The translations under genes were made by a program, and so were the position numbers. This document shows, piece by piece, positions 1,870 to 32,470 of a stretch of 32,470 nucleotides of DNA (positions within the stretch are counted from its first letter, which is position 1; each line of letters starts with the position of its first letter). The notes under the pieces were generated by a model. It was given only the letters and a program-made list of their open reading frames with translations. It ran no database searches and was not told the DNA's origin. Source of the stretch: a virus. Location: the IMG/VR virus record IMGVR_UViG_3300037189_026290, positions 1-32,470 of that record; one strand, 5' to 3'.

Positions 1870-1877
1870 TTTTGACA
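1870..1877 (+). promoter_or_regulatory. TTTTGACA start-proximal element
   Basis: TTTTGACA lies 13 nt before the GTG at 1891. No -10-like hexamer occurs at the right distance. The same box precedes several other late starts (see findings). Confidence 0.5.
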
Positions 1878-1890
1878 TGGCGTGGGTTTT

Positions 1891-2211
1891 GTGCTGCGTT
1901 CCGACATTTTGTTTCAGGCGAAGAAAAGCGCCCGCGAGCGGTTTGATGTGCATGGCGTAGACGTGGAGTTCCGAGGTGGCCGCGTACGCGTTTTGATTTC
2001 TGCGGCGCCTGCAAGCCTGGACCTCATGGCGGGTGGTTTTTCCACCAAGCAGGTTTGGAAAATCCGCATGCCATCAAGCATCACTCCGGTTCCAAAACCG
2101 CTGGAACGCATCACTACTGTCTCGGGTCGATATTACGTCATCACGTCCGTTCTTTCGCCGACCGGAGCCGCTCAGATGCAGGAACACGTTGTCGAGGCCG
2201 AATGGAGCTGA
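1891..2211 (+). CDS. Putative head-tail connector
   Basis: This 106-residue protein lies directly after the coat gene, where siphoviruses encode head-closure and head-tail joining proteins. It is predicted to be mostly beta-strand (DVHGVDVEFRGGRVRVLIS, then RYYVITSV near the end). No family motif is recognised, so the call is positional. An alternative GTG three codons upstream (1882) is in frame. I prefer 1891 because it is 13 nt from the TTTTGACA box, matching other late genes. Its stop is one base from the next start, so translation is probably coupled. Confidence 0.7.
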   Translation: MLRSDILFQAKKSARERFDVHGVDVEFRGGRVRVLISAAPASLDLMAGGFSTKQVWKIRMPSSITPVPKPLERITTVSGRYYVITSVLSPTGAAQMQEHVVEAEWS

Positions 2212-2212
2212 G

Positions 2213-2620
2213 ATGAACCACCTCGCGCTTGAACAAGCGGTGAAGGCCGCTCTAGCTGCATCGGCATTTCCCGCAACGGCCATCTATACCGGTTCGGGTT
2301 ACGACATCTTGGAACCTCAAAGTTCCAATCTGATCGTTTCGTGCCAAAACGCTCGTCAGGAAGGCATCGGCCTTTATGTGGCTGACGTGACCGTCCGGCT
2401 GACTGCTCCCGCGCTCCAGGGGGCTGATTCTTATGCGTCTTTTGACCAGCAGCTCAACATCCTTCGCGACGCGTTGACGCCCGTATACATGAACGCGAAT
2501 TGGCCAATCACGGCCTCCGCTCCCGCGTTTTTCGGTATGTGGGTGGAATCCAGCTCCACCACTTCCGACAACAACGCCTGGTCGTCGGAGCATTCGGTCA
2601 GCATGGGAATCGGCATTTGA
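2213..2620 (+). CDS. Putative tail terminator / neck protein
   Basis: The 135-residue protein lies between a connector-like gene and the tail tube, which is the usual place for tail-terminator (gpU-like) proteins. It has an N-terminal helix (HLALEQAVKAALAAS), a central alternating strand region with YVADVTVRLTAP, a helix around QQLNILRDAL, and a serine/threonine-rich end. This alpha-beta pattern fits tail-terminator folds but is not proof. ATG 2213 is chosen because it follows the upstream TGA by one base. No sequence motif confirms the role. Confidence 0.68.
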   Translation: MNHLALEQAVKAALAASAFPATAIYTGSGYDILEPQSSNLIVSCQNARQEGIGLYVADVTVRLTAPALQGADSYASFDQQLNILRDALTPVYMNANWPITASAPAFFGMWVESSSTTSDNNAWSSEHSVSMGIGI

Positions 2621-2681
2621 GGAAATGCGCATTTGACACGGAGGCCCAAGCGAATCCCCAACCCCACCAACCTAACCTACC

Positions 2682-3053
2682 ATGGCCGCCACACTTCTCG
2701 GCTCCTCCACCGGAGCCACCTTCGGATGCACCGCTGAGACCGGCATCCTGATCAACAGCTTTTCCGTTTCCACTTCGAGCGACAAGGTCGAGGTGAAAGA
2801 TGAAACGGGATCGGTAAAGCTCGTCGCCATCACCAATCCCCGTTCCGCCATCAGCCTTTCCGGGACGGTTGCCGGGACCACGGGTGTTGCCGCCGCCTCC
2901 GTCGGAGTGGCACTCACGCTTGCCAATAGCGACACGATCGGTGGCGTCTCTGCAGGAATCAACATCGTTGACTCCGTCCAGCTCTCCAAAAGCCAAAACG
3001 GGTTCAAGACCATCTCGGTCTCCGCGACCCGCTACCCGCTGATCACTTCCTAA
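2682..3053 (+). CDS. Major tail tube protein (putative)
   Basis: This 123-residue, beta-rich protein is small, has alternating hydrophobic and Ser/Thr residues, and contains a KVEVKDETGSVKLVAITNPR segment typical in style of tail-tube proteins. It sits before the chaperone and tape-measure genes, and a terminator follows it, fitting a highly expressed structural protein. It would polymerise into hexameric rings around the tape measure. The ATG has no Shine-Dalgarno site and follows a C/A-rich leader. A TTTGACA box lies 43 nt upstream of this ATG, farther than at other genes. Function is inferred from size, composition and order. Confidence 0.72.
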   Translation: MAATLLGSSTGATFGCTAETGILINSFSVSTSSDKVEVKDETGSVKLVAITNPRSAISLSGTVAGTTGVAAASVGVALTLANSDTIGGVSAGINIVDSVQLSKSQNGFKTISVSATRYPLITS

Positions 3054-3084
3054 TCGGATGAATCGCTGATCTTCATCGGGCTAC

Positions 3085-3124
3085 GCCCCCGGCCCGGCAT
3101 CTGAGCCGAAGAGGGGGCATTTTT
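3085..3124 (+). terminator. Rho-independent terminator after the tail tube gene
   Basis: GCCCCC (3085-3090) pairs with GGGGGC (3113-3118), with an inner GGC/GCC extension, and is followed by ATTTTTA. It lies 32 bp after the tail tube stop codon. A weaker GATGAA/TTCATC hairpin lies just before it. Confidence 0.75.
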
Positions 3125-3147
3125 ACAACTTACAATCCGAAAAACCA

Positions 3148-3567
3148 ATGTCCGAAAATCCCGATGCCCTGCAAGGGGGATGGTTTACCAGTTCCGACCT
3201 CAAGCTCGTCACCGCGCTGAACTGCGCCGGTTTCGCCTTCAAGAAAGACTCAGAGGTCACCCGTCTCAAGTTTTCCGATGGGCGTGACAGCTTCACCTGG
3301 CACCTGGAGGTCAACAACGATGCCGGAGAGCACATCAGCGAGTTCCTCAAGCTCTGGGAGAATCCAGCCGAAAGCGGACTTCCTAAGCCCGACAACCGCG
3401 TCATCTTTCTCTGGGCTCGTGAAGCCATGATGGCTCGGAACCACATCCTTGCCGAGACACACAAGGATCCTGCCAGTGAGTTCCGCCAGCGAGGCGATGT
3501 CCGCGTCGCCATCTCTCCCCGCCTCGGCAGAACCGAAAGGGAGCAACTCGCGCGCCTCGCAAGCTAG
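3148..3567 (+). CDS. Conserved-position tail protein, unknown function
   Basis: I do not recognise this 139-residue protein. It is acidic to neutral, without membrane segments, with many Phe and Trp residues in the first half (GGWFTSS, FKKDSEV, SFTWHLEV) and a charged, helical C-terminal half ending in TEREQLARLAS. It lies between the tail tube terminator and the tail chaperone, so a tail assembly or tail tube accessory role is likely. ATG 3148 follows an A-rich leader without a Shine-Dalgarno site. The next gene starts 13 bp downstream. Confidence 0.7.
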   Translation: MSENPDALQGGWFTSSDLKLVTALNCAGFAFKKDSEVTRLKFSDGRDSFTWHLEVNNDAGEHISEFLKLWENPAESGLPKPDNRVIFLWAREAMMARNHILAETHKDPASEFRQRGDVRVAISPRLGRTEREQLARLAS

Positions 3568-3580
3568 ACCGTCCATATTT

Positions 3581-4027
3581 ATGAAAAATGAAGACCTCGA
3601 CATGATGCCGGACCCCGGCATCGACACGGAGAAGCGCAACGCCGAGCTCGATGCCGACCTCCTGAAGGGTGGCGAGTCGATTGCCGGGATCACGCTCCGC
3701 CCGATCACGGCGGGGGATCTGGCGATCCTCATGCAGTCCGGCGTTGGAATCGTCCTGGGACGCACCGACAATCTGACCTATGACACCGGAGCCATTCTCT
3801 TTACCCAGTCCCAGCCCAAGGAGATCGTCCGCGAGGCCTTCAGAGATGGAACACTCAAGGACCGGGTGCTCGATTTCCTTGATGAGTACGACCCGACGCT
3901 CTTCAGCGAGGCAGTCCCCCGTGTGGCCGATCTGGTCGGTCGGATGAACCGCTCGAGGACGGCCATCAGCGGATCAGCACCTTCGTCGGGGGACCGCCCA
4001 AAAAAAGCTGGTCGCCGGGGTGGCTGA
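3581..4027 (+). CDS. Tail assembly chaperone, short form (gpG-like)
   Basis: This 148-residue acidic protein precedes the tape measure, the usual place for the tail chaperone that binds it during tail assembly. The body contains AGITLRPITAGDLAILMQSG (about residues 36-55), a segment with the style of chaperones of siphoviruses and contractile phages. Near the end the codons CCA AAA AAA GCT form a slippery site, and the frame closes at 4025-4027 with a basic AGRRGG tail. The -1 frame after the A-run stays open for 64 codons, so a longer fusion form is expected. ATG 3581 has no obvious ribosome binding site. Confidence 0.82.
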   Translation: MKNEDLDMMPDPGIDTEKRNAELDADLLKGGESIAGITLRPITAGDLAILMQSGVGIVLGRTDNLTYDTGAILFTQSQPKEIVREAFRDGTLKDRVLDFLDEYDPTLFSEAVPRVADLVGRMNRSRTAISGSAPSSGDRPKKAGRRGG

Positions 4028-4200
4028 CAAGTTACGTCGCCATTCTGGCTGAGAAGACCGGCTGGAGCATGGACCAGATCCTCTGGGAGCTTCCGTTTTC
4101 CGAGGGAATGCGGATCTCGGATTACCACGTCTGGATCGGTGGAAAGACCCTCCGGTGGGCGGATGATGTCTGGGATCTGGAAAGCGATCTGGGGCTCTAA
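3581..4200 (+). CDS. Tail assembly chaperone, -1 frameshift fusion (gpGT-like)
   Basis: Ribosomes that slip back one base on A AAA AAA (4000-4006) would leave the short frame after 142 codons and read AGC TGG TCG and onward to the TAA at 4198-4200, giving a 206-residue fusion. The added segment (SYVAILAEKTGWSMDQILWE, then a DYHVWIGGKTLRWAD region) has no start codon of its own close to its beginning and begins in frame only through the slip. Lambda makes gpGT in the same way from G and T. The minor, longer product normally recruits tail tube subunits to the tape measure. The frameshift is predicted from sequence only. Confidence 0.78.
4000..4006 (+). promoter_or_regulatory. Slippery heptamer for -1 ribosomal frameshift
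   Basis: Seven A residues sit as A AAA AAA in the zero frame, followed by GCT. A GC-rich stretch (GGTCGCCGGGGTGG) follows and could slow ribosomes. It joins the 3581 frame to the open frame ending at 4200. Confidence 0.78.
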
Positions 4201-4201
4201 T

Positions 4202-4405
4202 ATGGAACTCAGGAAATCAGGAATGGATCTGAAATGTCCCCACTGCGGATCTGGTCTTTGTGACGATGGTCAGGGATTTACCTGCGGGACCGGAGTGGTC
4301 CCCGAATGGGGCACCTCGAGGACCGGCCTCTGCCACCGACGGGCATCCTTTTCACTTTTGACACCCCGCCACGGGCAGAGTGAACACCAAGGTCGAAATC
4401 GATAA
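4202..4405 (+). CDS. Small zinc-ribbon-like protein
   Basis: The 67-residue ORF has cysteines at 12, 15, 20, 28 and 44, in a CPHCGSG ... FTCGTG ... GLCHRR arrangement that looks like a small zinc ribbon. ATG 4202 is one base after the stop of the frameshift product; a second ATG at 4223 is in frame. The last 25 bases overlap the next gene, whose TTTTGACA box lies inside this ORF. The role is unknown; it may be an assembly accessory or may act on host nucleic acid. The cysteine spacing supports it as a real gene, but the C-terminal 20 residues look less constrained. Confidence 0.66.
   Translation: MELRKSGMDLKCPHCGSGLCDDGQGFTCGTGVVPEWGTSRTGLCHRRASFSLLTPRHGQSEHQGRNR
4356..4363 (+). promoter_or_regulatory. 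TTTTGACA start-proximal element
   Basis: The box lies 16 nt before the GTG start at 4380, inside the end of the zinc-ribbon ORF. No -10 box is spaced for a promoter. Confidence 0.5.
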
Positions 4406-5210
4406 CCGCCAACTCCTCGCGCGTATGAAACGCCTCGAGGACGTCACTGGGAAAACCGTTTCCTCGACTTTGAAACGCGGGGCACGACTTCTGGCCGTTA
4501 ATCTGGCAACTTCCTCGCCTCCTTACGGCAAAAACAAGGATGCCCGCGCCCAAGGGGAGCAAGCCGTCCAGAACGACATTCTTCGGGTTTTCACTCCGGG
4601 ATCCGCCATCACGACAAAGCAAGGCCGATCCACCAAGAGCTTTGCCGAGGATGTTCAGAGCTTCATGACCCGCGACCTGCGGCTCCGAGATGCCATCGTC
4701 GCCGCTGTTCGTGCCGCTGATGCGACCGCTCTCAATAAAATCCTATCCAATGTGCCTGGATATGCCCGTTTCCATGCCACGACCACTGTGGATCGCGATC
4801 TGCACAAGAGCACCCGGAATGCCTATGGCCGCGTCCGCAAGGGATGGCGGTCCCGTGAAATCGTACTGGGGAATGCGCTCCCGCAGTACCTCAAGGAAAA
4901 ACAAGATCTCGTAGGCCTCACCAAAGCCGCATGGGCGTCCGCCGCATTAAAGGTCAATGCTGATGTAAAAGACGCCCTGAGTGGGCTCCCTGCATGGGTC
5001 AAGAGACACATTTCCAATGTTCCTTCCGCTGTTGTCGATAAGTCGGAGTCCAATTTACCGGTCATCACGATGACTTCCAAACTGCCCTGGGCAGACAAAG
5101 CCATGCCGGAAAGCAAATACAAAGAAGCTCTCCGGATCCAGCGGGAGAAATTCTACAACGCCATGGGCAAGGAAATCCGAGCCGCATTGAAAGCTCAAGC
5201 AACCAACTAA
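4380..5210 (+). CDS. Putative minor tail / tail completion protein
   Basis: This 276-residue basic protein starts with VEIDNRQLLARMKRLEDVTG, resembling the start of HK97-gp10-type tail completion proteins, but it is about twice their usual length and sits after the chaperone instead of before the tail tube. The middle is basic and helical, with KSTRNAYGRVRKGWRSRE; the end has KYKEALRIQREKFYNAMG. No enzyme motif is seen. The GTG start is supported by the upstream TTTTGACA box and by the protein sense of the first residues. The tape measure starts 4 bp after its stop. The function remains open. Confidence 0.72.
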   Translation: MNTKVEIDNRQLLARMKRLEDVTGKTVSSTLKRGARLLAVNLATSSPPYGKNKDARAQGEQAVQNDILRVFTPGSAITTKQGRSTKSFAEDVQSFMTRDLRLRDAIVAAVRAADATALNKILSNVPGYARFHATTTVDRDLHKSTRNAYGRVRKGWRSREIVLGNALPQYLKEKQDLVGLTKAAWASAALKVNADVKDALSGLPAWVKRHISNVPSAVVDKSESNLPVITMTSKLPWADKAMPESKYKEALRIQREKFYNAMGKEIRAALKAQATN

Positions 5211-5214
5211 TTTT

Positions 5215-7305
5215 ATGGCCGATATCAGCGTATCAATGGGGGTGACGGGCAAGGACGTTGTCCAGGGCGCGTTCAAAGATGTCGCGTCCTCAGCCGAGGC
5301 CATGGGGTCCGCGCTCATGGAGCATACCAAAAAATTGGCCCAACTCGCACTTGGATTTGAAGGGGTAAAGATTGCCTGCGATCAATTCAAAAGAGTCCTT
5401 GATGAAGGAGGAAAACTGAACGACCTGAGCGAGCAAACGGGGATCGCGGTGGAAAAACTTGTCCTCTTGCAACGTGCTTTTCAGAACAACGGCCTCGAGG
5501 CCGATGATGTGGGGAAGGTGGTCAATAAAATGCAGAAAGCCATCTCGGATGCAGGGGAATCCGGAAGTCAAGCGGCTGATAAGCTACATAAGCTTGGCCT
5601 CTTTGCAGTGGATCTCAAGTCCATGAACCCGGAGGAGCAGTTGGCCGCCTTTGCCAAAGCCATCAACAAGATTGAGGATCCGGCTGATAAAAGCGCCGCC
5701 GCGATGGATGTTTTTGGAAAGTCCGGCGGGAAATTACTGTCTCTGTTTTCCAATATGCCGGAGGAAATCAAGGGAGCCGCTGAGGAAGTCGGAACCTATG
5801 CCAAGATAATGGGCGACAAAGCGGCGGAATTTGACAAGATCGGCGACAAGCTCCAGAACGCTCTTGGTCATAAAGTCGTGGAATTTTTTGCCGGAGCGTT
5901 AAGCAATCTGTCCGGAGGTATTTCCGGCCTCTTGGATGCAGTTTCCAAGTTTGATGCTGCGGCATTTGGTGAAAAGATCACACACGGACTCTCCGAGCCA
6001 ATGCAGGCCCTCGCCACGGCCATCACGACAGGTCAGTTCATGAAAGCCCTGGAGCTGTCTTATGAACTGGTGAAATGGCAAGCCATGAAGATGGGCAATG
6101 AACTTTACCACGCATTTGAAGGGGCTGTGGCTGGCGTTCAAGAACTCTTTACAAAGGTTTTTGACCCAAACGGGTATATTTTCAATTACATCGCCACCGG
6201 ATTCCAAACCCTTGGCTCAATGATCAAAGGTATTTTGATTGAAGGAGTTCTTGGAGTCATTGATGGGATCCCTGGCTTTTCCAAAGTTACCGAGAATCTC
6301 AAATACCAACTTGAGACAGCTCATCAAGAAATCAAAAATGGCCAGAACGCCCTGGCTACTGGTTGGGAAGTTGCACAATCGGAATTGGGAAAAATTGTAA
6401 AATCCAGCGCAGATGTTGCGGTCAATGTCTACAACTCATCTGCAAACCTTTTTGATCAAAAGGCTCAATTTGATAAAATCTCTGAAATATCCAAAGACAT
6501 TCAGAGTGCGTGGCAACACAGTGCCGAAGCCGTTGATCGGTTTGTGGATCGGTTAAATAGTCCCACTCCGTTTGGGCAATGGAAAATGGGAAGCAATGGG
6601 GCGCTTGAGCCGGTTCAACAACCAAAGACGCCCATGCAAGAGTATCAGGACTCTTGGAAAGGCAACGGATCTGGCCCCATCGATGACGGCAAATCCGCGC
6701 CACCACCTCCTGGCGGTTCTGGAGGGAAAACCAGCCCAGCCCCCATTCCCATCTATTCCGACGCCCAAATGTCCGGCGGCGGCCTTTTCAACGTCAAGAA
6801 TGTCGGCATGGACATGGGTCAGGATCTCACTGCCGCAGGCATGGAGATCAAATCAAGACTTCAAAACCAATACGGACGCCAGCTGGCCGATGCTCAAAAG
6901 AATCAAGACTTCCAAGGGGCCGCGTACTACCAGCGGCAGATGATCGACCAACAAAATGCCATGGCTCAACAGGCACTTGGCGACGCGGCGGAAAAGGAAA
7001 CCAACCGGCAATACACCGGATCCGATCAAGCAAGCTCTGCCGACGTTCTGAGGCAGATTGAATCCAAATACCGTGGCACTATGTCTCCGGAGGATGCCCT
7101 GAAAGCGGCTCGGAAAGAATACAACGATGTCGTGAACAAAAACAAAGGCCCCATGGCCGATCAGGGTGGCCCCGGTGGTACTGATAAATCCGGATCGCAA
7201 AAATCTCCGCAAGATAAAGCCAACGATGTCCTGGACAAGATCCTGAGTTACCTCAAGGACACCGTCCGCCTTGATCAGAAGCTCCCCCTGATGGCCCTTT
7301 CCTAA
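5215..7305 (+). CDS. Tail tape measure protein
   Basis: At 696 residues this is the longest gene of the tail module. It sets tail length and is threaded through the tube. The first 60 residues are helical and Ala-rich; residues 70-200 contain LSEQTGIAVEKLVLLQRAFQ and EEQLAAFAKAINKIEDPADK, patterns common in tape measure proteins. Hydrophobic helical segments occur near residues 220-240 and 330-350. The C-terminal third is Gln/Gly/Pro-rich with a PPPPGGSGG linker and charged helices. With the usual 1.5 angstrom per residue the tail would be about 100 nm, assuming the full length is used. The gene has no visible frameshift or stop. It follows the chaperone module, as expected. Confidence 0.85.
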   Translation: MADISVSMGVTGKDVVQGAFKDVASSAEAMGSALMEHTKKLAQLALGFEGVKIACDQFKRVLDEGGKLNDLSEQTGIAVEKLVLLQRAFQNNGLEADDVGKVVNKMQKAISDAGESGSQAADKLHKLGLFAVDLKSMNPEEQLAAFAKAINKIEDPADKSAAAMDVFGKSGGKLLSLFSNMPEEIKGAAEEVGTYAKIMGDKAAEFDKIGDKLQNALGHKVVEFFAGALSNLSGGISGLLDAVSKFDAAAFGEKITHGLSEPMQALATAITTGQFMKALELSYELVKWQAMKMGNELYHAFEGAVAGVQELFTKVFDPNGYIFNYIATGFQTLGSMIKGILIEGVLGVIDGIPGFSKVTENLKYQLETAHQEIKNGQNALATGWEVAQSELGKIVKSSADVAVNVYNSSANLFDQKAQFDKISEISKDIQSAWQHSAEAVDRFVDRLNSPTPFGQWKMGSNGALEPVQQPKTPMQEYQDSWKGNGSGPIDDGKSAPPPPGGSGGKTSPAPIPIYSDAQMSGGGLFNVKNVGMDMGQDLTAAGMEIKSRLQNQYGRQLADAQKNQDFQGAAYYQRQMIDQQNAMAQQALGDAAEKETNRQYTGSDQASSADVLRQIESKYRGTMSPEDALKAARKEYNDVVNKNKGPMADQGGPGGTDKSGSQKSPQDKANDVLDKILSYLKDTVRLDQKLPLMALS

Positions 7306-7317
7306 GATCCAGACCAT

Positions 7318-8769
7318 ATGAGCACAACTTACCACGGCGTCACCTCCGCTCTCATCATTGCCCCCGGCGAGCAGATCACGACTGCCAACAGCGGCCTGAC
7401 CACTCTGACCCGCACCTACCAGTGCGCGGCTACCTACGAGGCCACCGCGGAGTCGATCCTCGTCCCTGGATACGCCCCGGCAGATTACCCTCTCCTTGCC
7501 CTTCAGACCGCGCCGGTCGCCCAGCGCACGGGCTCGATCACGACTTTTGCCTGCACGTTCTTTGGTGTCCTTTCGGAATCGGCTTGGGAAAGGTATTACG
7601 ATCAATACTCCAGCCGCAACGAGCAGGCCTCCTACACTTACGAGGATTTCAAGGGGATCAGGTCACTTGGTTTCTTGCTGACTTCTGCCACCGGAAAGTT
7701 CAATTACGGAGCCCCCGTCTTAAGCCGGAGCTATGTAGTTCCCCGCGCCACGATGCCCAAGGTTCCGGCACTTGCGGCCTCAGCATGGTCAGGCGTTCCG
7801 GTCTCGACGTTCAATGAAGTCCCCCCGGCCTCGACCGTCCCGACCACGGTCACCTTGTCCAGCGGCGACACGGTGGCCTATCCCGTGACTTTCGATCCCG
7901 ATCAGCCGCGCGGCAGTGACCTGCTTGCGGTCGGCATGACGACCAGGGTGAACAGTTTCTCGGTCGTGCCCTACGGAGCCGCCAATCTGGTTTCCATCGA
8001 TTACGAGCGGGTATGGGGGGCCGACGGGCACACTCTGAATCCTTACGCGCACGATCCGACAAATCTCCGCGACAGTTCCATCGATGCCTTGGTCCTACCG
8101 ACCAACAACTGCACGATATCAGGCCTTACGGTGACACCGGAGGCGTATGATTCCTCCGACACCCTTCAGGCCTCGCTCGGAGCCGGTCCGATTTCGGTCG
8201 GGTATGCGTCGCTCTCCAATCCGACGCCGGAATTCCCCGTGCTGGCAACGGGGATCGTTTGGCACGATCATTTTAACTCGCTTTCTGGTAACGATTACAA
8301 CGGATCCACCAGTCTTGCCTCCGGCATGTTATCAACGGCGCTCCATCTCAAGCCTTGGAAATACGACATCGCGGTCTCCGTCGCGACGGAAGGAGGGACC
8401 GCAAGCTCCTTTGTCTATAATGTGGTCACCAAGGGCGTACCTCCTCCTCCGACGATTACTTCTGGGTCGAGCACATTGACCCCAGCGGTGGGAGGCAGTT
8501 TTCCTCATGCGGCGTACACGACGTTCCGGGTTGATTTCGACGAAGCCTACCTTGGAGCCACGGCAGACTTCTCCATCACCTCCTACAGTTACCGGGCAGC
8601 ACAGGGCGGATCGACGCTGACTGCGGGATCGCCTTCGATTTCCGGCCCGTCGGATATTAACAAGCATTTGACCTTTACCTTGGCGGGAAATGTCGGAACC
8701 GATGTCACTCTCCGTGCGGTGAATGCCAGCGGATCAAGTGCCGTGGCCACCACGACGATCGCCATATGA
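7318..8769 (+). CDS. Distal tail / tail tip structural protein (unknown family)
   Basis: The 483-residue protein is rich in Ser, Thr, Gly and Val and appears all-beta. The N-terminal 160 residues have many aromatic residues (YYDQYSSRNEQASYTYEDF). The C-terminal third, from about residue 375 (GVPPPPTITSGSS), looks like immunoglobulin-like or fibronectin-like repeats, ending DVTLRAVNASGSSAVATTT. Such domains are common in tail tip and decoration proteins. It directly follows the tape measure gene, where distal tail proteins are normally encoded. The stop overlaps the next start by four bases (ATGA), so the two are translationally coupled. I cannot assign a named family. Confidence 0.72.
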   Translation: MSTTYHGVTSALIIAPGEQITTANSGLTTLTRTYQCAATYEATAESILVPGYAPADYPLLALQTAPVAQRTGSITTFACTFFGVLSESAWERYYDQYSSRNEQASYTYEDFKGIRSLGFLLTSATGKFNYGAPVLSRSYVVPRATMPKVPALAASAWSGVPVSTFNEVPPASTVPTTVTLSSGDTVAYPVTFDPDQPRGSDLLAVGMTTRVNSFSVVPYGAANLVSIDYERVWGADGHTLNPYAHDPTNLRDSSIDALVLPTNNCTISGLTVTPEAYDSSDTLQASLGAGPISVGYASLSNPTPEFPVLATGIVWHDHFNSLSGNDYNGSTSLASGMLSTALHLKPWKYDIAVSVATEGGTASSFVYNVVTKGVPPPPTITSGSSTLTPAVGGSFPHAAYTTFRVDFDEAYLGATADFSITSYSYRAAQGGSTLTAGSPSISGPSDINKHLTFTLAGNVGTDVTLRAVNASGSSAVATTTIAI

Positions 8770-9056: not shown

Positions 9057-9058
9057 CC

Positions 9059-9889: not shown

Positions 9890-9897
9890 TTTTGACA
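9890..9897 (+). promoter_or_regulatory. TTTTGACA start-proximal element
   Basis: The box begins one base after the upstream stop codon and lies 13 nt before the ATG at 9911. The gene has no Shine-Dalgarno site. Confidence 0.5.
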
Positions 9898-9910
9898 CCG
9901 CGCCCGAGGC

Positions 9911-10255
9911 ATGGCCTCTGTCTCTTTGCCCAGTATCGTCCAGTCTGCCGAGTATTCCTATCAGCTGACCGTCACCGACGGCTCCGGTTCTCCGGTCAAT
10001 ATCTCGACGGCCACGATCACGGGTCAGATCCGCAAGGCCGCTGGAAAAGATCTCTACGCCACCTTCACCGCCACGCCGGTCTCCGGTCAGGTCAACAAAG
10101 TGACCATGTCTTTGACACACACTCAGACCGCCGCGATCCCGGCCACGCCGGACGGCTCGGTCTGGGCGCATGACGTTTTCGTCCAGTTCACCGACGGAAG
10201 CCGCATCCGCGTCCTCCGTGCGGATATCACGGTCGAGGCTAGGGTCACTGCCTGA
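9911..10255 (+). CDS. Baseplate/tail fibre base protein with BppU-N-like fold (putative)
   Basis: The 114-residue protein is a single beta-domain: YSYQLTVTDGSGSPVNISTA, then ITGQIRKAAGKDLYATFT, then DVFVQFTDGSRIRVLRADIT. This order of strands is reminiscent of the N-terminal domain of the BppU baseplate upper protein and other fibre-attachment Ig-like domains. It precedes the fibre-like gene by five bases, fitting a fibre adaptor. The BppU likeness is from remembered pattern and would need a profile search. Confidence 0.7.
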   Translation: MASVSLPSIVQSAEYSYQLTVTDGSGSPVNISTATITGQIRKAAGKDLYATFTATPVSGQVNKVTMSLTHTQTAAIPATPDGSVWAHDVFVQFTDGSRIRVLRADITVEARVTA

Positions 10256-12027: not shown

Positions 12028-12035
12028 TTTTGACA
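12028..12035 (+). promoter_or_regulatory. TTTTGACA start-proximal element
   Basis: The box starts directly after the TAG stop of the preceding gene and lies 14 nt before the GTG start at 12050. Confidence 0.5.
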
Positions 12036-12049
12036 TGGTGGCTTCCTGA

Positions 12050-12529
12050 GTGAAGCAGTCCGCCATTCATGCGCTGGTCATTATTCTCTTAGCTTGGCTG
12101 GCCTTGACGGTCTGCCTCTTTGGCATTACCGGATGCGCTACGGCCCCGAAGCCTACAGCTCCGGTCTTCACGGCCCCGACCGTCACCAAGACTTGGACCG
12201 CAGTTTCCAAAGCCCGTGATGCCGCCCGTGACCTCGAGGCCGATGCCCCTGCCTCTCTCCGTCCTGGCATCGCGGCTCTTTCCCAAGATCTGGCCAATGC
12301 CCAGCAAGCCCTGAGCGATTATGCCGCGAGTGTTGGAACTCAGACGGATGCCCTGAACAAAGCCGAATCCGACAAGAACGCGGCCCTGCTCCAGGTCTCC
12401 TACCTCGAAGGCAAGCGTGAGAAGGCCCTGCGAGAACTCTGGATCCTCCGGCTCATCATCCTCGCCGAGATCGGTTGCGTGGTCGGATGGATCGCCCTAC
12501 GCGGGGGGATCCGCGCCATGCTCCCGTGA
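12050..12529 (+). CDS. Candidate unimolecular spanin (u-spanin)
   Basis: The 159-residue protein has an N-terminal hydrophobic signal (residues 7-28) ending in the lipobox FGITGC, with Cys29 as the predicted lipidated residue. A Pro-rich stretch follows, then a long helical region (about 47-130), then a C-terminal transmembrane helix (131-150, WILRLIILAEIGCVVGWIAL) and a basic end. Lipid anchor at one end and membrane helix at the other is the layout of T1-type u-spanins, which bridge the two membranes and fuse them after peptidoglycan breakdown. It lies between a membrane protein gene and the holin gene. The GTG start fits the TTTTGACA box. Alternative: an outer membrane lipoprotein of another use. 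Confidence 0.74.
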   Translation: MKQSAIHALVIILLAWLALTVCLFGITGCATAPKPTAPVFTAPTVTKTWTAVSKARDAARDLEADAPASLRPGIAALSQDLANAQQALSDYAASVGTQTDALNKAESDKNAALLQVSYLEGKREKALRELWILRLIILAEIGCVVGWIALRGGIRAMLP

Positions 12530-19866: not shown

Positions 19867-20115
19867 ATGGGAAATCCTGAAAAAGTCCATGGTCTGCTGA
19901 CCTGGAATCGACGCGAGGCCGAGCTGCACTTCGAGCGCTCCAAGGCCGAGCAATACATCCTCCCTTGGCGCGAAGTCGCCGGGGAGCTGGCCGAGAGTGG
20001 CAGTGCGCTGGTCAATGAGCTCAGAGATGGCCGTCGCCCCTGTCCTCTTGTGCTGAGTCTCTTCCTCGAGGCCTGCACGAGCTACGACCGCATCAAGCGG
20101 AAGGAGGTGGCGTGA
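19867..20115 (+). CDS. Early protein, unknown
   Basis: The 82-residue helical protein (LLTWNRREAELHFERSKAEQ, then RPCPLVLSLFLEACTSYDRI) is not recognised. Its C-terminal KRKEVA is encoded by the AAGGAGGTGGCG that serves the next gene, and its stop overlaps that ATG. No DNA-binding or enzyme motif can be claimed. It starts a run of ten or more coupled genes. Confidence 0.66.
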   Translation: MGNPEKVHGLLTWNRREAELHFERSKAEQYILPWREVAGELAESGSALVNELRDGRRPCPLVLSLFLEACTSYDRIKRKEVA

Positions 20116-26470: not shown

Positions 26471-26668
26471 GACTATCCCACTCGACTATCCCACTGAGGC
26501 CTGCCCGCGGCCGCCTCGACTATCCCTCTCGGGTCTCATGCTGCCCAGACGGCGACCGGCCGCCGCCGCTCGGGCCTTCCCTCTATCCCATTCATTGCAA
26601 CTATCCCACAGACTATCCCACTGTTTAAGTTATTATTCTCCAATTATTTGGAGAATGAGTGGGATAGT
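26471..26668. repeat. Iteron array, consensus GACTATCCCACT
   Basis: Copies: 26471-26482, 26484-26495 (13-bp spacing), 26518-26529 (GACTATCCCTCT), a weak copy near 26583-26591 (CTATCCCAT), 26599-26610 (AACTATCCCACA), 26611-26622, and an inverted copy 26658-26668. Further inverted copies lie at 26143-26153 and 27410-27420. No good ORF covers this stretch. Repeats of this size next to replication genes are typical of initiator-binding iterons. Confidence 0.88.
26623..26660. other. AT-rich stretch with perfect hairpin; candidate origin unwinding element
   Basis: AT-rich sequence after the iterons contains ATTCTCCAA (26635-26643), a TTAT loop and TTGGAGAAT (26648-26656). The AT-rich arm and the hairpin sit between iteron copies. 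This is a usual layout of a DNA unwinding element in theta-type origins. Confidence 0.65.
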
Positions 26669-26692
26669 GAAGGAAGTGTCATGGGGTTACAG

Positions 26693-26775
26693 GTATTTGT
26701 TTACAAATACGGGCATACCAGAAGGGGCGAACATGCGGAACACTTTCCCACCCCCGGCTATCCGCACCCGGGGGT
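26693..26775. other. Two perfect hairpins between iterons and terminase
   Basis: GTATTTG-TTTA-CAAATAC lies at 26693-26710 and ACCCCCGG / CCGGGGGT at 26750-26757 and 26768-26775 with a 10-base loop. A T-tract (TTTTTGC) follows the second by 11 bases, so it could be a weak terminator for the early operon. A TAAAAT at 26797-26802 is a possible late promoter -10, but no good -35 was seen. Confidence 0.55.
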
Positions 26776-26825
26776 ACAAGGAATCTTTTTGCTAAATAAA
26801 ATCCTCTGCGGTTGGGCGCACTGGC

Positions 26826-26912
26826 GGTGTTTTTGTGCGCGTTTTTCGCATCATTAAAACGACGTTTGCCGTTCGCGGTGTTCGCTCGCATTCGCTTCTT
26901 GTCGTTTTGACA
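26826..26912. other. Candidate cos/terminase-binding region
   Basis: TTCGC occurs at 26844, 26872, 26881 and 26891, the last three 9-10 bases apart as GTTCGC, GTTCGC and ATTCGC. They lie inside an 8-bp inverted repeat AAAACGAC (26856-26863) / GTCGTTTT (26901-26908). In lambda-type phages the cos site lies just upstream of the small terminase gene, as here. No cohesive end can be read directly. Confidence 0.4.
26905..26912 (+). promoter_or_regulatory. TTTTGACA start-proximal element
   Basis: The box lies 13 nt before the GTG start at 26926 of the small terminase gene and is the right arm of the long inverted repeat. Confidence 0.5.
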
Positions 26913-26925
26913 ACGAAACGCGTGT

Positions 26926-27531
26926 GTGGCGACTTCGCATTCAGATTCCGCGCTCATCGCAGAGTGCGCTGGGCAACACGGCGTCACCGTGCGTTCGGTT
27001 CAAAAATGGAGAAAAACTGAAGACCGGCGTTGGTTGGAATTTCTTCGATCCCGCGCGGCCAGCGCTCAGATCGGACTTTTCTCCGCACCGCAGCAAGAAC
27101 GCCTCACGCCCCAACAGGAGGAAGACCAGGCAGCCCGCCGATACGCTGGGTTGGCCCTCATGGCCGACCGTGCGATTGCCGAGGGGAATTTCCTCGAGAT
27201 GCGTTCCGCCATCAAGGCCGCTGAAGACGCGCACAAGCTGCTGAAAACCGTCCGGGAGAATACGACCTCCGTTTTGGTGAACAGTGGGAAACTCGTTCCC
27301 GCCGACGAAGTCTCTGAACTGATCCTTGGGAACCTCTCCCTGGTCAAACGCCTCATCGAAAATTTGCCCGACGTCCTGGCTTCCCGGATTGAGTCCGCTT
27401 CCGACGTTCGTGGGATAGTCCGGGCAGAAGTCCATTCGATCCTCAAAGAAATTTCTTTGTCGGTGAGGTCCATGCCGTTTGTTGCCGAGCCGAGTGCTCC
27501 AAATCATGAGCCCGTCCCTCGCGCGGATTGA
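26926..27531 (+). CDS. Terminase small subunit (Nu1-like)
   Basis: The 201-residue protein has an N-terminal helix-turn-helix (LIAECAGQHGVTVRSVQKW) that should bind cos DNA, a Gln-rich linker (APQQERLTPQQEEDQ) and a C-terminal helical part for binding the large subunit. It directly precedes the large subunit gene and overlaps it by 26 bp. The GTG start fits the TTTTGACA box; two other in-phase-unrelated GTGs lie just upstream. An inverted iteron copy lies within the gene at 27410-27420. Confidence 0.82.
   Translation: MATSHSDSALIAECAGQHGVTVRSVQKWRKTEDRRWLEFLRSRAASAQIGLFSAPQQERLTPQQEEDQAARRYAGLALMADRAIAEGNFLEMRSAIKAAEDAHKLLKTVRENTTSVLVNSGKLVPADEVSELILGNLSLVKRLIENLPDVLASRIESASDVRGIVRAEVHSILKEISLSVRSMPFVAEPSAPNHEPVPRAD
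27410..27420 (-). repeat. Inverted iteron copy inside the small terminase gene
   Basis: GTGGGATAGTC is the reverse complement of GACTATCCCAC, 11 of 12 bases of the iteron. Being within a coding gene and about 750 bp from the array, it could extend the control region. Confidence 0.6.
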
Positions 27532-29266
27532 GTCGCAGCTCGAAAAGCTCTGGAACCCCCGCGAGCGCATGGACCCGCTCACATGGGCAGAGCGAGAAGT
27601 GATGATCGACGCGCGCTTCAGCCCAAAGCCAGGCCGCTTCGATTCTTCATTCACCCCGTACATCCGGCAGCTGCACCGTTGGTTCGGTGATCCGAACATC
27701 CGTCAGATCACCCTGCAGAAAAGCGCCCAGATCGGCGGTACCACCTTTTTGGCAAACCTCATGCAATGGGTGCCCGCGGAGGAACCGGGGCCCGTCCTCT
27801 ACGTCACCTCGACGGCAGACAATGCCAAGTCTTGGAGCGAACGGGAACTGATCCCGCGCATCCGCTCCTGCCCGGCGCTCCGGGATTTGCTTCCGGATGA
27901 TCCGGATCAGTTCAAAAAAACGGAAATCTTTTTCAAATCGTGCGTCATGAAACTGGTCGGCGCCCAGTCGGTCAGTGCCTTGGCGTCTCGCGGCGTTCGC
28001 TACCTTTTTTGCGACGAAGTGGACAAATGGCCGTCGCAAACCGATGCCGAGGCACCGGCGCTCGAGCTGGCGATGGCCCGTACGAATTTCTACGAACGCA
28101 TCAGCAAGACTGTCCTGGCCAGCACGCCCACCGTGATCGAGGGGGCAATTCACCAACAGTTCCTGCTCGGCAGCCAGCACCGTTATCATGTTGTCTGCCA
28201 GGATTGCGGAAAATCTCAGTGGTTGAAATTCGACCAGATCAAATGGTCCGAAGATCTGCGAGACGACGATGGTAAATGGGCGCTCGACGCCGTGGAGGAA
28301 TCGGCATGCTACCAATGTGAAGAATGCGGATCTCCTTGGTCGCAAGACAGAAAACGCGACTTGTTGATCCCCGAAGATCTCGGAGGCCGGGCGCATTGGG
28401 TTCAGGGAAACTCCTCGGCTCCCAGCGACCACATCAGCGTCCATCTTTCTGCGCTCTACTCGCCGCAACAAAGCTGGGGCCATACCGCCAAACTCTTTCT
28501 GCAAAAAAAAGACGATCCTGGCGGCTTGCACGATTTCCAGAACAACACGCTCGGGGTTCCTTACGAGACCCGCGTTTTTTCGCTAAAAGAAGAGCGTCTC
28601 CTTGATCTTCGTACTAGCGAATACCGTTTGCGGGAAATCCCGGCCGCCGCGTGTGTGAATCCCGAGTCCGGACCAGTCCTTCTAAGTATCTGCGCCGATC
28701 CGGGTCAAAAAGAAACGCATTGGAGCGTCGAGGCGCGAAACCTTGCCGGGGAAAGTTGGGTGATCGACTACGGCAGCGTGTTGGCCATCGACGACCTGAA
28801 CTCTGCCGCTTTCCTGTCCGGTCTCAGATACCGCGTCCAAGGAACAGAGATCTACCATTGCCCGACCGTGGGCCTCGTCGACAGCGGAGACTTCACCACG
28901 ACCGTCTACGACATGTGCGCGGCCAGCGGTGGCCGCTATTTCCCGTCCAAAGGATCGGCGGCTTCCTTTGGAACTTTTTCCAAAAGCCGCATTCACGGTT
29001 ACCCAAATCTGTTGCTTTTCACATACGTCGATTTTACTTGGAAATTTAGCCTGTATGATGAGCGGATCGGCCGCCGCCTGCCCCCGCTCCTGCATTGGCC
29101 AGCGGATGTCGGCAGGGATTTCATCCAAGGCCACGCCGGACAGAAAATCCTTGAGAACCGAAAGAACCGCAACACGCCGCGTTTTTTTGCAAAGGTGGCA
29201 AACGACCACTGGGGCGATTGCAGTAAGCTTCACCAAGTCTGCTGGGCCGAAATTCGATCAAGCTAG
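27506..29266 (+). CDS. Terminase large subunit, GpA type
   Basis: With ATG 27506 the protein is 586 residues. The ATPase has a Walker A-like QKSAQIGGTT (71-80), Walker B YLFCDEVD (166-173; Asp170, Glu171) and a coupling ASTPT (205-209). A Zn-ribbon-like part has C231-x2-C234 and C268-x2-C271-x2-C274. The nuclease acid is in ICADPGQ (about Asp398), followed by further Asp and His in the RNase H fold. Lambda gpA family proteins share this layout. It cuts at cos and drives DNA into the prohead with the portal. The earlier in-frame TTG (27479) is unlikely. The short gap before the next gene contains a TTTTGACT element. Confidence 0.93.
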   Translation: MSPSLARIESQLEKLWNPRERMDPLTWAEREVMIDARFSPKPGRFDSSFTPYIRQLHRWFGDPNIRQITLQKSAQIGGTTFLANLMQWVPAEEPGPVLYVTSTADNAKSWSERELIPRIRSCPALRDLLPDDPDQFKKTEIFFKSCVMKLVGAQSVSALASRGVRYLFCDEVDKWPSQTDAEAPALELAMARTNFYERISKTVLASTPTVIEGAIHQQFLLGSQHRYHVVCQDCGKSQWLKFDQIKWSEDLRDDDGKWALDAVEESACYQCEECGSPWSQDRKRDLLIPEDLGGRAHWVQGNSSAPSDHISVHLSALYSPQQSWGHTAKLFLQKKDDPGGLHDFQNNTLGVPYETRVFSLKEERLLDLRTSEYRLREIPAAACVNPESGPVLLSICADPGQKETHWSVEARNLAGESWVIDYGSVLAIDDLNSAAFLSGLRYRVQGTEIYHCPTVGLVDSGDFTTTVYDMCAASGGRYFPSKGSAASFGTFSKSRIHGYPNLLLFTYVDFTWKFSLYDERIGRRLPPLLHWPADVGRDFIQGHAGQKILENRKNRNTPRFFAKVANDHWGDCSKLHQVCWAEIRSS

Positions 29267-29270
29267 GGTT

Positions 29271-29278
29271 TTTTGACT
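29271..29278 (+). promoter_or_regulatory. TTTTGACT start-proximal element
   Basis: The box lies 12 nt before ATG 29291, just after the terminase stop. Confidence 0.45.
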
Positions 29279-29290
29279 CGGGACACTGGC

Positions 29291-29644
29291 ATGTCCTTCA
29301 CTCAGCATCAGAGCGCCGACCTTACCGGCGTGAAACGTCTTTTTCTTCGGAAAATCGCTGACGGGACATTGACGGTCTCAGATCTCAAAAACCTTGCCGA
29401 GCAAGCCGGAGAAGCGGCCTTGCAAGGAAAAGCCAGCGTCGAAATCACTTCCCTTTCCGCAGATGGATCCGCCAGTTCCGGCGTGGTCGTCATGTCGGCC
29501 AATGACCTTTTGGTGCTGACAATGGATTTGCTCGACGTAATCGACCCAGTCGATTCAACCGTGGCTCCGCGCAATATCTTTGTAAAAGCCGACTTTAGCC
29601 GGAGCCGTGGCCCGTTTGACTTGAACCCCTTCCGGTGGCTCTGA
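29291..29644 (+). CDS. gpW-position protein (head-tail joining)
   Basis: The 117-residue protein lies between terminase and portal, the place of gpW in lambda, which joins tail to head. Residues 14-45 form helices (VKRLFLRKIADGTLTVSDLK) and a strand part follows (ASVEITSLSADGSASSGVVV). Lambda gpW is shorter (68 residues), so the equivalence is positional. The stop overlaps the portal start by ten bases. ATG 29291 is preferred to an in-frame TTG at 29273 because of the element spacing and the absence of sense upstream. Confidence 0.72.
   Translation: MSFTQHQSADLTGVKRLFLRKIADGTLTVSDLKNLAEQAGEAALQGKASVEITSLSADGSASSGVVVMSANDLLVLTMDLLDVIDPVDSTVAPRNIFVKADFSRSRGPFDLNPFRWL
29615..29621 (+). promoter_or_regulatory. 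TTTGACT start-proximal element
   Basis: The box lies 13 nt before the GTG start of the portal at 29635, inside the end of the preceding gene, where it reads FDL. Confidence 0.45.
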
Positions 29645-31299
29645 AATCCAAACAATCCAAGCCCTCGCAAAAGAAAAGCGGGGGCCGTCGTCAAACAGTT
29701 CGTCGCGGTAAAACGGCTGGGCTTGTCTTGCCTGAAAACCGATCTTTCGAGGAGGCATTGCCCAGTTACAACCGGCCCACGGTCTACCTGACCAGCATCG
29801 AAGCAAAAAAGGAACTCCCGTCTTGGGACCGGATTCGCCTGATGAACCACGCGCGGTGGCTCGTCAATAATTCCCCCATCGCCGCCCGCATCGTGCGAGG
29901 CATCTCGCGGTACGCCGTGGGGAACGGGCTGACGCCCCAAGCCCGCACGGCAAACAACGACTGGAATACAAAAGCCGAGCAACTTTTTGAAGACCGAGTG
30001 GCTACAGATGCCTTTGCCTTCGACAAAGCCGGATCGGTGAATTTCTACGACAGCCAGCGCTTGATCGTGGAGCAGATGGTGGCCGACGGGGAATTCTTTG
30101 CCCAGCTCTGCACCTCCGAGAACGGCGGAGCGATGTGCAAGTTCTTCGGTGCGGAGTACGTCGGCAGTCGCATGGGCGACGAGATCGACGGATGGCGCGA
30201 CGGCGTCATGGTCAACGATGATAACCGCCCCGTGCTTTATCGCGTGTTGAGCAACCCCATGATAAGGGACGGAATTTTTACAGATATCCCTTCGGACGAC
30301 CTCATTCACATCCGCAAGCTTCACCGTCATGGATTTCAGCGTGGGCTTACCTGGCTCTGTTCCTCGGTCTCCCTCATTCAGGATCTGCGGGAAATGCTGG
30401 AGAACGAGCAAGCCGCCGCGCGCTTGAACAGCAAGATCGGGCTTGTCATCGAATCGCCGGACGCAGGAAACCTTGGCATGGGTGCCAGCATGCAAAAACT
30501 GCGTGCACAAGCCGTCGAGAACAGTCTCGGGGGAACCCTTGGCGGCACTGGCGGAGGAGCCGGTGCAGCGGGGGGCTCATCCCTTACCGACGAGCAAATC
30601 ACCTTTGATCGTTTGGTCAGTGGAGTCGGAAACATCCAACTCAAGCCCGGAGAGAAACTGCAAGCTCACGAATTCGACCGTCCCAACACCAATTTTGCAC
30701 CCTGGACGGAATTTGTTGTCCGCTCCATTAGCTGGTCGTGCGGGATGCCGCCCGAGCTGCTGTGGAATATGACAGGCGTCGGGGGAGCGGTTACGCGCCA
30801 CGTTCTGCAAGACGCAGAGGTTTTTTTCAGCGAAATCCGCCAGATCCTTGAGTATCAGTACTGTCGCAGGTTTTGGAGATACTGGGTCTGGCACGCCATC
30901 AAGCGCGGAGACCTGGAATATCCCGGAGACGACTGGTGGAGATGCGACTGGATTGCTCCGCAAAAACTCACGGTCGATACCGGCCGGGATGGAGCCCTGC
31001 GGTTAAACCTCGTCCGCAGCGGTCTTCTTTCTTCCAAAAGGTATTTTGCCGAACTCGGCCAAGACGTCGACAGCGAAACGGACGACATCATCCGTGATTA
31101 CGCCCGCAAGAAAAAACGTGTCGGGGAAATTGCACAAGAGACCGGCGTCGAGCTGACCATGCCGGAAGTCTTCCCTCCGGCGCCCGGGGCCACGCATATC
31201 ATGCCCGCTGCGCGCGCAGCGGAGGGTTTTTTCCCGGATCATGAGGGCGCAGATGGATCTAAGAACCCGCGCCGCCTCTACCCGCGACTTTTTGCCTGA
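29635..31299 (+). CDS. Portal protein, lambda gpB family
   Basis: The 554-residue protein has a basic N-terminus and the portal hallmarks RLMNHARWLVNNSPIAARIV near residue 64-83, a beta-rich clip/wing region (SRMGDEIDGWRDGVMVNDDN), and a Gly-rich insert (GGTLGGTGGGAGAAGGSS) around 300-320. It also has a C-terminal WRYWVWHAIKRGDLEYPG stretch. It makes the dodecameric ring through which DNA enters. GTG 29635 overlaps the previous gene's stop. Near the end it carries the 18-bp palindrome (P-A-A-R-A-A-E). The protease gene follows after the Dps-like gene. Confidence 0.9.
   Translation: MALKSKQSKPSQKKSGGRRQTVRRGKTAGLVLPENRSFEEALPSYNRPTVYLTSIEAKKELPSWDRIRLMNHARWLVNNSPIAARIVRGISRYAVGNGLTPQARTANNDWNTKAEQLFEDRVATDAFAFDKAGSVNFYDSQRLIVEQMVADGEFFAQLCTSENGGAMCKFFGAEYVGSRMGDEIDGWRDGVMVNDDNRPVLYRVLSNPMIRDGIFTDIPSDDLIHIRKLHRHGFQRGLTWLCSSVSLIQDLREMLENEQAAARLNSKIGLVIESPDAGNLGMGASMQKLRAQAVENSLGGTLGGTGGGAGAAGGSSLTDEQITFDRLVSGVGNIQLKPGEKLQAHEFDRPNTNFAPWTEFVVRSISWSCGMPPELLWNMTGVGGAVTRHVLQDAEVFFSEIRQILEYQYCRRFWRYWVWHAIKRGDLEYPGDDWWRCDWIAPQKLTVDTGRDGALRLNLVRSGLLSSKRYFAELGQDVDSETDDIIRDYARKKKRVGEIAQETGVELTMPEVFPPAPGATHIMPAARAAEGFFPDHEGADGSKNPRRLYPRLFA
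31205..31222. repeat. 18-bp perfect palindrome in the portal gene
   Basis: CCGCTGCGCGCGCAGCGG, identical to 22263-22280 and read in the same frame (P-A-A-R-A-A-E) near the C-terminus of the portal. Confidence 0.9.
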
Positions 31300-31302
31300 G
31301 CC

Positions 31303-31728
31303 ATGCCGACATTATTCACCCTTGCTTCACTGCTTCGCAGCCTGCAGCTCTACGCGCACAACGCTCATCACACGGTCTGCGGGGAAAGTTTCTTTGCCGA
31401 CCACAAGTTCTTGGCCAATGCCTACGCGGCTTACGAAGAATCCTACGACAGCGTCATCGAGCTGGCTATCGGCGACGGAATGGTCTGTCCGCTTGTCGAG
31501 ATCCAGCGCGAAGCCGTGGATCTCCTTGAGGAACTCTCTCGGATGGAACTCGACCAACTGGCCACCCTCTGGCGCGGCGAAGGACAGATCCAATCGCTGA
31601 TTGATGGATTGTGTGCCGGGCAGAGTGACCAGGGCATTGTCCAAGTGCTGGGAACCATTGCTCAGGAATCCAAAGTGCGTCGCTACAAACTGGGCCGCCG
31701 GATAGAGGCATTTGACAAGAGCGAATAG
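31303..31728 (+). CDS. Dps/ferritin-like protein
   Basis: The 141-residue helical protein shows the Dps helix pair: SLQLYAHNAHHTVCGESFF, then a DHKFLANAYAAYEESYDSVI segment. Spacing matches E. coli Dps: His22 (H51), Gly27 (G56), Phe30 (F59), His34 (H63), Asp49 (D78) and Glu53 (E82) fall at the same intervals; the acid equal to D67 is missing (Ala38). Dps proteins bind iron or DNA and form 12-mers. Its position between portal and protease suggests a virion or assembly role. Alignment is from memory and the loss of one ligand makes ferroxidase activity uncertain. Confidence 0.75.
   Translation: MPTLFTLASLLRSLQLYAHNAHHTVCGESFFADHKFLANAYAAYEESYDSVIELAIGDGMVCPLVEIQREAVDLLEELSRMELDQLATLWRGEGQIQSLIDGLCAGQSDQGIVQVLGTIAQESKVRRYKLGRRIEAFDKSE
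31711..31717 (+). promoter_or_regulatory. TTTGACA start-proximal element
   Basis: The box lies 16 nt before ATG 31734, inside the end of the Dps-like gene (reads FDK). Confidence 0.45.
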
Positions 31729-31733
31729 CTATC

Positions 31734-32470
31734 ATGAGCCGAACCTGGTATGCCATTTCTAACACCACCGACAACAGCGCGGACATTGAGATCTATGACG
31801 AGATTGGCGGGTGGGGTGTTTCTGCCAAAGAATTCATCAAAGGCCTTGCCGCCCTCAGTGGAAAACACCTCAACCTCCGGATCAACTCTCCCGGGGGCAG
31901 CATTGTCGACGGGCAAGCCATCATCGCCGCGCTGAACCGTCACGTCGGAGGATTCACCGCATGGGTCGACGGCCTTGCGGCGTCCATGGCCAGTGTCATT
32001 GCTTGCGCTGCCGAGCGCTGCTACATGGCGGACGGGGCCATGATGATGATCCATCGGGCCAGCACCGTTTCCATGGGGGACGCAAGCGACTTGCGCAAGG
32101 ACGCCGATATCCTGGAAAAATTCGAGCGCGGATTGCTGAGCGTTTATCAGAAAAAGACGGGCCTCGAGGAACCGGCGCTTAAGGAAATGCTTGCTCAGGA
32201 AACGTGGATGGACGCCCTGGAAGCCGTGGCTCTTGGGTTTGCCGACGGGATCACCGATGCGCCTGCGGCAATGGCCAAGCTCAGCGCAGTGGAAATGCGT
32301 GCGCGATTTGACACCTTCCGATCAAAAAACATGAATCCTCAATCTTCCGCCACCAAAGCCTCCACGGAAAACCCGATCGTCACCGCTCCCCTCGCCCCCG
32401 CTGCTGCTGCCCCGCCGGTTGCCCAAGTGGACGGCCCCGCAGGGACTCAGAACGATCCTGAGGGCGGCAA
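31734..32470 (+). CDS. Head maturation protease (ClpP/S14-like), N-terminal part of protease-scaffold
   Basis: This is the 5' part of a 401-residue gene that continues at position 2. It has the ClpP-like order: NSPGGSIVDG (51-60, oxyanion loop), nucleophile Ser84 in GLAASMAS, general base His107 in MMIHRA, and an acid-bearing helix after (DASDLRKDAD). Lambda gpC-type and P2/HK97-type phages use related proteases to trim scaffold and coat in the prohead. It lies between the Dps-like gene and the coat gene. An internal ATG at 32331 could give a separate scaffold. The last 87 bases repeat positions 1-87. Confidence 0.9.
   Translation, partial: MSRTWYAISNTTDNSADIEIYDEIGGWGVSAKEFIKGLAALSGKHLNLRINSPGGSIVDGQAIIAALNRHVGGFTAWVDGLAASMASVIACAAERCYMADGAMMMIHRASTVSMGDASDLRKDADILEKFERGLLSVYQKKTGLEEPALKEMLAQETWMDALEAVALGFADGITDAPAAMAKLSAVEMRARFDTFRSKNMNPQSSATKASTENPIVTAPLAPAAAAPPVAQVDGPAGTQNDPEGG
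32307..32313 (+). promoter_or_regulatory. TTTGACA element before the internal scaffold start
   Basis: The box lies 17 nt before the in-frame ATG at 32331, inside the protease coding region. It supports internal initiation. Confidence 0.45.
32331..32470 (+). CDS. Scaffold protein from an internal start (continues at position 2)
   Basis: ATG 32331 is codon 200 of the protease-scaffold gene. It begins MNPQSSATKASTENP and would give a 202-residue scaffold without the protease, ending at 556. In lambda the scaffold Nu3 is made the same way from within gene C. The ATG follows an A-rich run (ATCAAAAAAC) and a TTTGACA box at 17 nt. This is inferred from layout; no direct evidence. Confidence 0.62.
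   Translation, partial: MNPQSSATKASTENPIVTAPLAPAAAAPPVAQVDGPAGTQNDPEGG
32384..32470. repeat. Terminal overlap of a circular assembly (right copy)
   Basis: These 87 bases are identical to 1-87. The codon phase is the same in both copies, so the genome joins here. Confidence 0.95.

Follow-up and report, generated by a model that had tools for sequence, protein, structure and literature searches.

The closest described counterparts of the element analysed here are the start-associated sequences, SAS and ESAS, of Cluster K mycobacteriophages and Cluster EF Microbacterium phages (PMC3203893, PMC7302621). They consist of a highly conserved motif in one orientation, fixed just upstream of many phage starts in genes of different families; they have a second feature at some sites, occur rarely or never in the host genome and are suspected of a role in translation, and all of these properties are shared by the present box (PMC3203893, PMC7302621). 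The criterion of a start-associated sequence, a conserved one-orientation motif at a fixed distance upstream of many start codons, is met. However, the SAS spans 13 bp, contains AGGAG, lies 3-7 bp from the start and accompanies non-structural genes (PMC3203893, PMC7302621), whereas the box comprises 6-7 nt without a Shine-Dalgarno (SD) sequence or 16S complement, lies 13-17 nt away and precedes late structural genes; its added feature is a start-codon hairpin backed by arm-swap tests. No homology to the published SAS (GGGATAGGAGCCC / GGGAAAGGACCCC) was found, the core of the box being only TTGAC(A/T).

Further likenesses are found among boxA elements. The boxA of rRNA is an RNA bound by NusB-S10 and S1, and in most of the Verrucomicrobiota rRNA operons inspected its host spacer form is GCTCTTTGACA, with the box inside it; unlike this rRNA element, the phage box represents the 3' core only, goes together with start codons and fails to track the host boxA in one genome, G105. 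In E. coli, the rrnB boxA placed upstream of an SD raises expression and enhances translation, strong SDs being aided far more than weak ones (PMC2176067). Binding of boxA RNA by S1 has been described in a work available here only as cited by others (Mogridge and Greenblatt 1998). The boxA of suhB in E. coli also lies just upstream of a start and acts on translation, but it serves a single regulated gene, stands 6 nt upstream of the SD and is repressive (PMC5725501). The lambda nut site likewise joins a boxA-like element to a following hairpin; the hairpins at the box, however, overlap the start codon and differ from gene to gene, so that the lambda-type criterion of one conserved, N-bound boxB hairpin per phage is not met. 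Standby sites and the start-codon hairpins of RNA phages resemble the element in that an unpaired landing site adjoins a hairpin concealing the start. To our knowledge, standby sites are not known to require a fixed sequence at a fixed distance.

How start codons are chosen in SD-poor bacteria is an open question. The element described below is compact (fixed sequence, distance and hairpin), recurs at many genes in many phages and separates early from late starts; with it, gene starts in Verrucomicrobiota phages would be predicted more reliably, and it may connect the rRNA antitermination signal boxA with mRNA translation.

The phage and its box

The window, i.e. the whole 32.5-kb stretch of DNA that was analysed, is a virus record of IMG/VR and holds a tailed temperate phage with genes for the large terminase (TerL), portal, ClpP-type head protease, major capsid, tape measure and integrase. 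About 40 IMG/VR relatives share its TerL at about 60% identity. TerL relatives at 56-58% occur in MAGs labelled Chthoniobacter flavus and Spartobacteria, one family holding those genomes, and the nearest isolated phage by TerL (30%) is an Akkermansia phage. Based on these matches, the host is inferred to belong to the Verrucomicrobiota, probably to the Chthoniobacterales. Akkermansia phage Moulinsart was ruled out as a close relative, with TerL at 30% and the box absent. The genome is mosaic, since the capsid gene (608-1777) is 53% identical to that of a Rhizobium phage, a lineage unlike that of the terminase relatives. One member of the phage family, L049 (VERI01000017.1), comes from a MAG labelled Burkholderiaceae, probably through a binning error. 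Gene calls were home-made, and many relative contigs are fragments.

The heptamer TTTGACA occurs 11 times on the + strand of the window and once on the - strand. Shuffled windows contained a mean of 3.5 copies on both strands, and 12 were reached in 0 of 100. Given how many starts there are, seven or more of the 11 copies would fall 12-17 nt upstream of one by chance with a probability of about 1.4e-12. The seven copies at this spacing, all on the + strand, are located at 1871..1877 (13 nt before GTG 1891), 4357..4363 (16 nt before GTG 4380), 9891..9897 (13 nt before ATG 9911), 12029..12035 (14 nt before GTG 12050), 26906..26912 (13 nt before GTG 26926), 31711..31717 (16 nt before ATG 31734 of the head maturation protease) and 32307..32313, the last within the protease ORF and 17 nt before the in-frame ATG 32331, a putative nested scaffold start. 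The variant TTTGACT is found on the same strand at 29272..29278, 12 nt before ATG 29291, and at 29615..29621, 13 nt before GTG 29635 of the portal gene. A preliminary description of this DNA had listed the same nine starts, five of them GTG, with the same distances, and proved exact in every case; its eight-letter form of the box, TTTTGACA, did not hold, being present in five copies only, and the core in relatives is shorter. The 201-aa gene in the TerS position, which begins at 26926, and its box spacing are both kept in relatives. The remaining + copies, at 2632, 5830, 10111 and 14382, lie outside the 12-17 nt spacing.

A coding-score program that took no account of the box was used to call the starts in 44 contigs. 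Of these starts, 91 have TTTGACA at exactly 13 nt upstream and 54 have it at 14-18 nt, with few copies elsewhere, and almost solely on the coding strand. Each of 18 relatives scanned over the whole record had 4-11 matches, all on one strand, compared with 0-1 per strand for a reversed-motif control. Enrichment at this spacing in relatives was the check named in the preliminary description; it is strong, with a peak at 13 nt and a strand bias, and extends to Verrucomicrobiota prophages. In 75 non-redundant sites the box is the sole conserved part; neither the 40 nt upstream of it nor the stretch leading to the start shows a conserved partner. The variants at 13-17 nt are TTTGACA (86), TTTGACT (13), ATTGACA (6), GTTGACA (4) and CTTGACA (4), which defines the core as TTGAC(A/T). 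The characteristics of an SD are lacking, since there is no 16S complement near the 3' end and the box ends 13-17 nt before the start; pairing with 16S rRNA was excluded for want of a conserved complement. Rfam returned no match, and no paper describing this box was found in the open-licence literature searched.

Gene classes and the start-codon hairpin

The box was observed at 157 of the 292 late genes preceded by a gap of more than 12 nt, at 7 of 126 coupled late genes and at none of the 249 genes before TerL; a box was also counted when it fitted an alternative start close to the called one, equally in every class. An SD-like GGAGG instead precedes 108 of these 249 genes; an example of this early-gene signal in the window is GGAGGTG at 20103..20109 (+), before ATG 20115. 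A second classification, of 18 full-length maps, gave 1 boxed gene among 204 early ones. The order that recurs in the maps is a box, coupled genes, a further box with its coupled genes, and finally the SD-led early genes.

The nested box before an in-frame start in the protease gene is present in the window, L032, L043 and L050, where it is translated as Phe-Asp, and in L049 it lies in another frame. Being kept in two frames, it must there represent more than protein coding. The ClpP-type head protease gene of the window spans 31734-32468, with the internal ATG at 32331; by analogy with lambda C/Nu3, the nested start probably yields a scaffold protein.

The gene in the capsid position, which follows the protease gene, has neither SD nor box and carries an A/C-rich leader instead. 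Such heads mostly lack the box, and their gaps are longer (median 48 vs 32 nt). The leaders, (CAACC)n-like, form a third class of starts, seen at L011 15034, L014 5989, L030 5750 and orthologues. A late gene of about 125 aa has an atypical box in the window (2632..2638, +), 43 nt before ATG 2682 and with an A/C-rich leader; in L005, L013, L015, L018, L019 and L020, genes of about the same length retain a box 33-53 nt upstream together with such a leader. This gene is an exception to the spacing rule and counts against the model favoured below.

Folding around the start was analysed by swapping 5' and 3' arms between sites and comparing the folding energy by spacing class. Sites of the 13-nt class fold across the start codon better than expected by chance (mean -8.5 vs -6.2 kcal/mol, z -5.9, 0 of 300 swaps). 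By this test, TerL-clade sites with a spacing of at least 14 nt showed no excess of hairpins, nor did unboxed starts. In an independent set, composed of capsid relatives and Verrucomicrobiota prophages, the signal was replicated with z -4.2 at 13 nt and z -5.7 at 14 nt or more. An earlier score, the longest contiguous stem, had been weak overall (about 2.4 sd), and the energy-based swap test by spacing class resolved the signal. At most sites the stem starts only a few nt from the box, and its loop contains or adjoins the start codon; the hairpin sequences vary between the genes of one genome. In the window, GAGG-CATGG-CCTC (9906..9918, +) holds ATG 9911 in its loop and GGAC-actggcat-GTCC (29281..29296, +) holds ATG 29291. 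A possible hairpin, GCTTC-CTGAGT-GAAGC (12041..12056, +), was read from the sequence around GTG 12050, where a longer-range competing stem also scores.

At L175:14359 and L150:7172, the box stands at least 28 nt from the start with a strong hairpin between them, by which the effective distance would become about 12-19 nt.

Hosts, prophages and rRNA boxA

Among 80 relatives of the window capsid the distribution of the box is patchy. In boxed contigs, 58 of 346 starts have it at 11-19 nt, against 2 of 721 in the other contigs, and none was found in the boxed contigs at the control distance of 31-39 nt; the terminases of these boxed contigs are just 24-37% identical to that of the window. A search of 388 Verrucomicrobiota genomes revealed boxes of the form TTTGAC(A/T) in prophages with related terminases or capsids in at least nine hosts. 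Two further prophages, L266 and L258 (hosts G105 and G262), have GTTGACA at the same distances, i.e. a phage-specific first base. Since the box is patchy in the capsid clade and present in Verrucomicrobiota prophages, it was not inherited merely with the capsid, and it seems, as an inference, to go with host and lifestyle and not with a single virion lineage. Host genes are never boxed (0 of 352 sampled), which excludes a host-wide translation signal. An SD was identified in only 22 of the 352, which makes these hosts SD-poor; Akkermansia and another Verrucomicrobia have been listed as SD-scarce (PMC10783764).

The likeness to boxA had been suspected before the host rRNA loci were inspected. 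Five Chthoniobacterales-family loci carry TCTTTGACA in their 16S-23S spacers, about 510 nt beyond the end of the 16S gene, and the box-containing GCTCTTTGACA is present in 6 of 10 further Verrucomicrobiota rRNA loci. The spacer boxA reads ATTGACA in Akkermansia-like loci and TTTGAAAACT in G105 and G264. The phage box corresponds to the 3' core of the rRNA boxA without its 5' GCTC, an equality that, at the level of sequence, is suggestive but not proven. In G105 the two do not match, the spacer boxA being TTTGAAAACT and the prophage box GTTGACA; strict coevolution with the host rRNA boxA, under which TTTGAAA would be expected in G105 phages, was rejected, and the link to boxA is therefore retained as no more than probable. 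This comparison rests on few hosts, as rRNA operons are missing from most MAGs with boxed prophages.

A probable role in translation initiation, and competing readings

The preliminary description had left the choice between a translation signal, an RNA-processing signal and a late-specific control site, as opposed to a promoter, and the evidence favours an element of translation initiation at late uncoupled genes. Several features point to initiation at the RNA level: the box keeps a fixed distance from the start codon, is restricted to uncoupled cistrons, stands before a nested start as well and is joined by a hairpin on the start codon. It is judged probable, without any expression data, that the box makes up the 5' portion of an RNA element through which translation of late non-coupled genes starts without an SD, as a standby site with a boxA-binding reader. 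Position, strand, spacing, gene class, hairpin and spread are established by the data; promotion of translation is itself an inference. A single-stranded (U)UUGAC(A/U) would be exposed in the mRNA at about -20 to -14, directly followed in many genes by a short hairpin with the start codon in or at its loop. This position is just upstream of the place of SD pairing, near the site where S1 handles mRNA on the 30S subunit. A ribosome-associated factor may read the box and keep the 30S subunit beside the closed start codon, and opening of the hairpin would then permit initiation, which amounts to a sequence-specific standby site. The inferred role of the hairpin would be to set the rate, and unstructured A/C-rich leaders, as at the capsid gene, would bypass the box. 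The fuller formulation, in which a sequence-specific, SD-independent element, made up of a TTGACA box at -20 to -14 and the hairpin on the start codon, recruits the 30S subunit via a protein rather than 16S pairing and replaces the SD from early to late genes, is a tentative proposal that could well be wrong.

Since the box equals the host rRNA boxA core in most Verrucomicrobiota examined, its reader is taken, by inference, to be a protein that binds boxA, either S1 on the 30S subunit or NusB-S10. Given the G105 mismatch and GTTGACA in the G262 prophage, however, the box reader need not be the boxA reader. The favoured model is also opposed by the missing box in the host's own genes, by the phage box being without the 5' GCTC, and by two E. 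coli precedents, the greater gain of strong than of weak SDs from boxA (PMC2176067) and the repression at suhB (PMC5725501). No strong candidate for a phage-coded reader emerged, and ten early proteins searched in Pfam showed no known RNA-binding domain.

Placed on the start codon, a hairpin would on its own reduce translation, which counts against the favoured model. It speaks for box and hairpin forming a translational operator, at which low-copy late proteins would be repressed by an RNA-binding protein of phage or host origin, perhaps the Nus complex in the manner of suhB; the boxA-mediated repression of suhB in E. coli (PMC5725501) and the boxless abundant capsid agree with this. Such an operator is nevertheless doubtful, as the boxes stand in place of another ribosome signal and not beside one, the class at 14 nt or more lacks the hairpin in the TerL clade, and, besides primase, helicase-like and lysogeny-region genes, the only widely shared early product is a 106-aa protein of the window with matches in 11 of 17 relatives. 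Repression cannot be excluded. A similarly low likelihood is assigned to boxA/nut-like sites at which NusB-S10 on nascent RNA would keep RNA polymerase Rho-resistant in the untranslated gap before each late cistron; neither the binding nor a modification of the polymerase has been demonstrated. Identity with the core of the spacer boxA in Chthoniobacterales and related groups, the many boxes that begin at or right after the upstream stop codon and the boxA-hairpin order of lambdoid nut sites all suit antitermination, but it needs neither the 13-17 nt spacing nor a nested site inside a translated ORF and is less likely for that reason; the mostly boxless A/C-rich heads with their longer gaps and the G105 mismatch also oppose it.

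A site of RNA processing or stability heading each late cistron, e.g. for endonuclease cleavage or protection, would account for a conserved, strand-specific, single-stranded box next to a hairpin and leaves unexplained both the narrow distance to the start codon and the centring of the hairpin on it, which renders it improbable. Ordinary sigma-70 promoters were ruled out and retain next to no credibility: TTGACA is the exact -35 consensus, yet the absence of a -10 noted in the preliminary description was confirmed, similarity at 16-18 bp (mean 1.75 of 6 matches) staying below the controls (2.05-2.45), and no conserved upstream partner exists. Transcription would moreover start within the gene, the box is linked to the start codon at a fixed distance, and the hairpin covariation works at the RNA level.

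In 20 of 129 cases in full relatives, the upstream gene stops at the TGA that forms part of the box (TTTGA|CA). Most relatives (e.g. L011:12267, L049:2535, L050:12151) contain AAATCAAA repeats shortly after the portal start, which may pair with the TTTGA of the box or may be protein coding (Lys-Ser).
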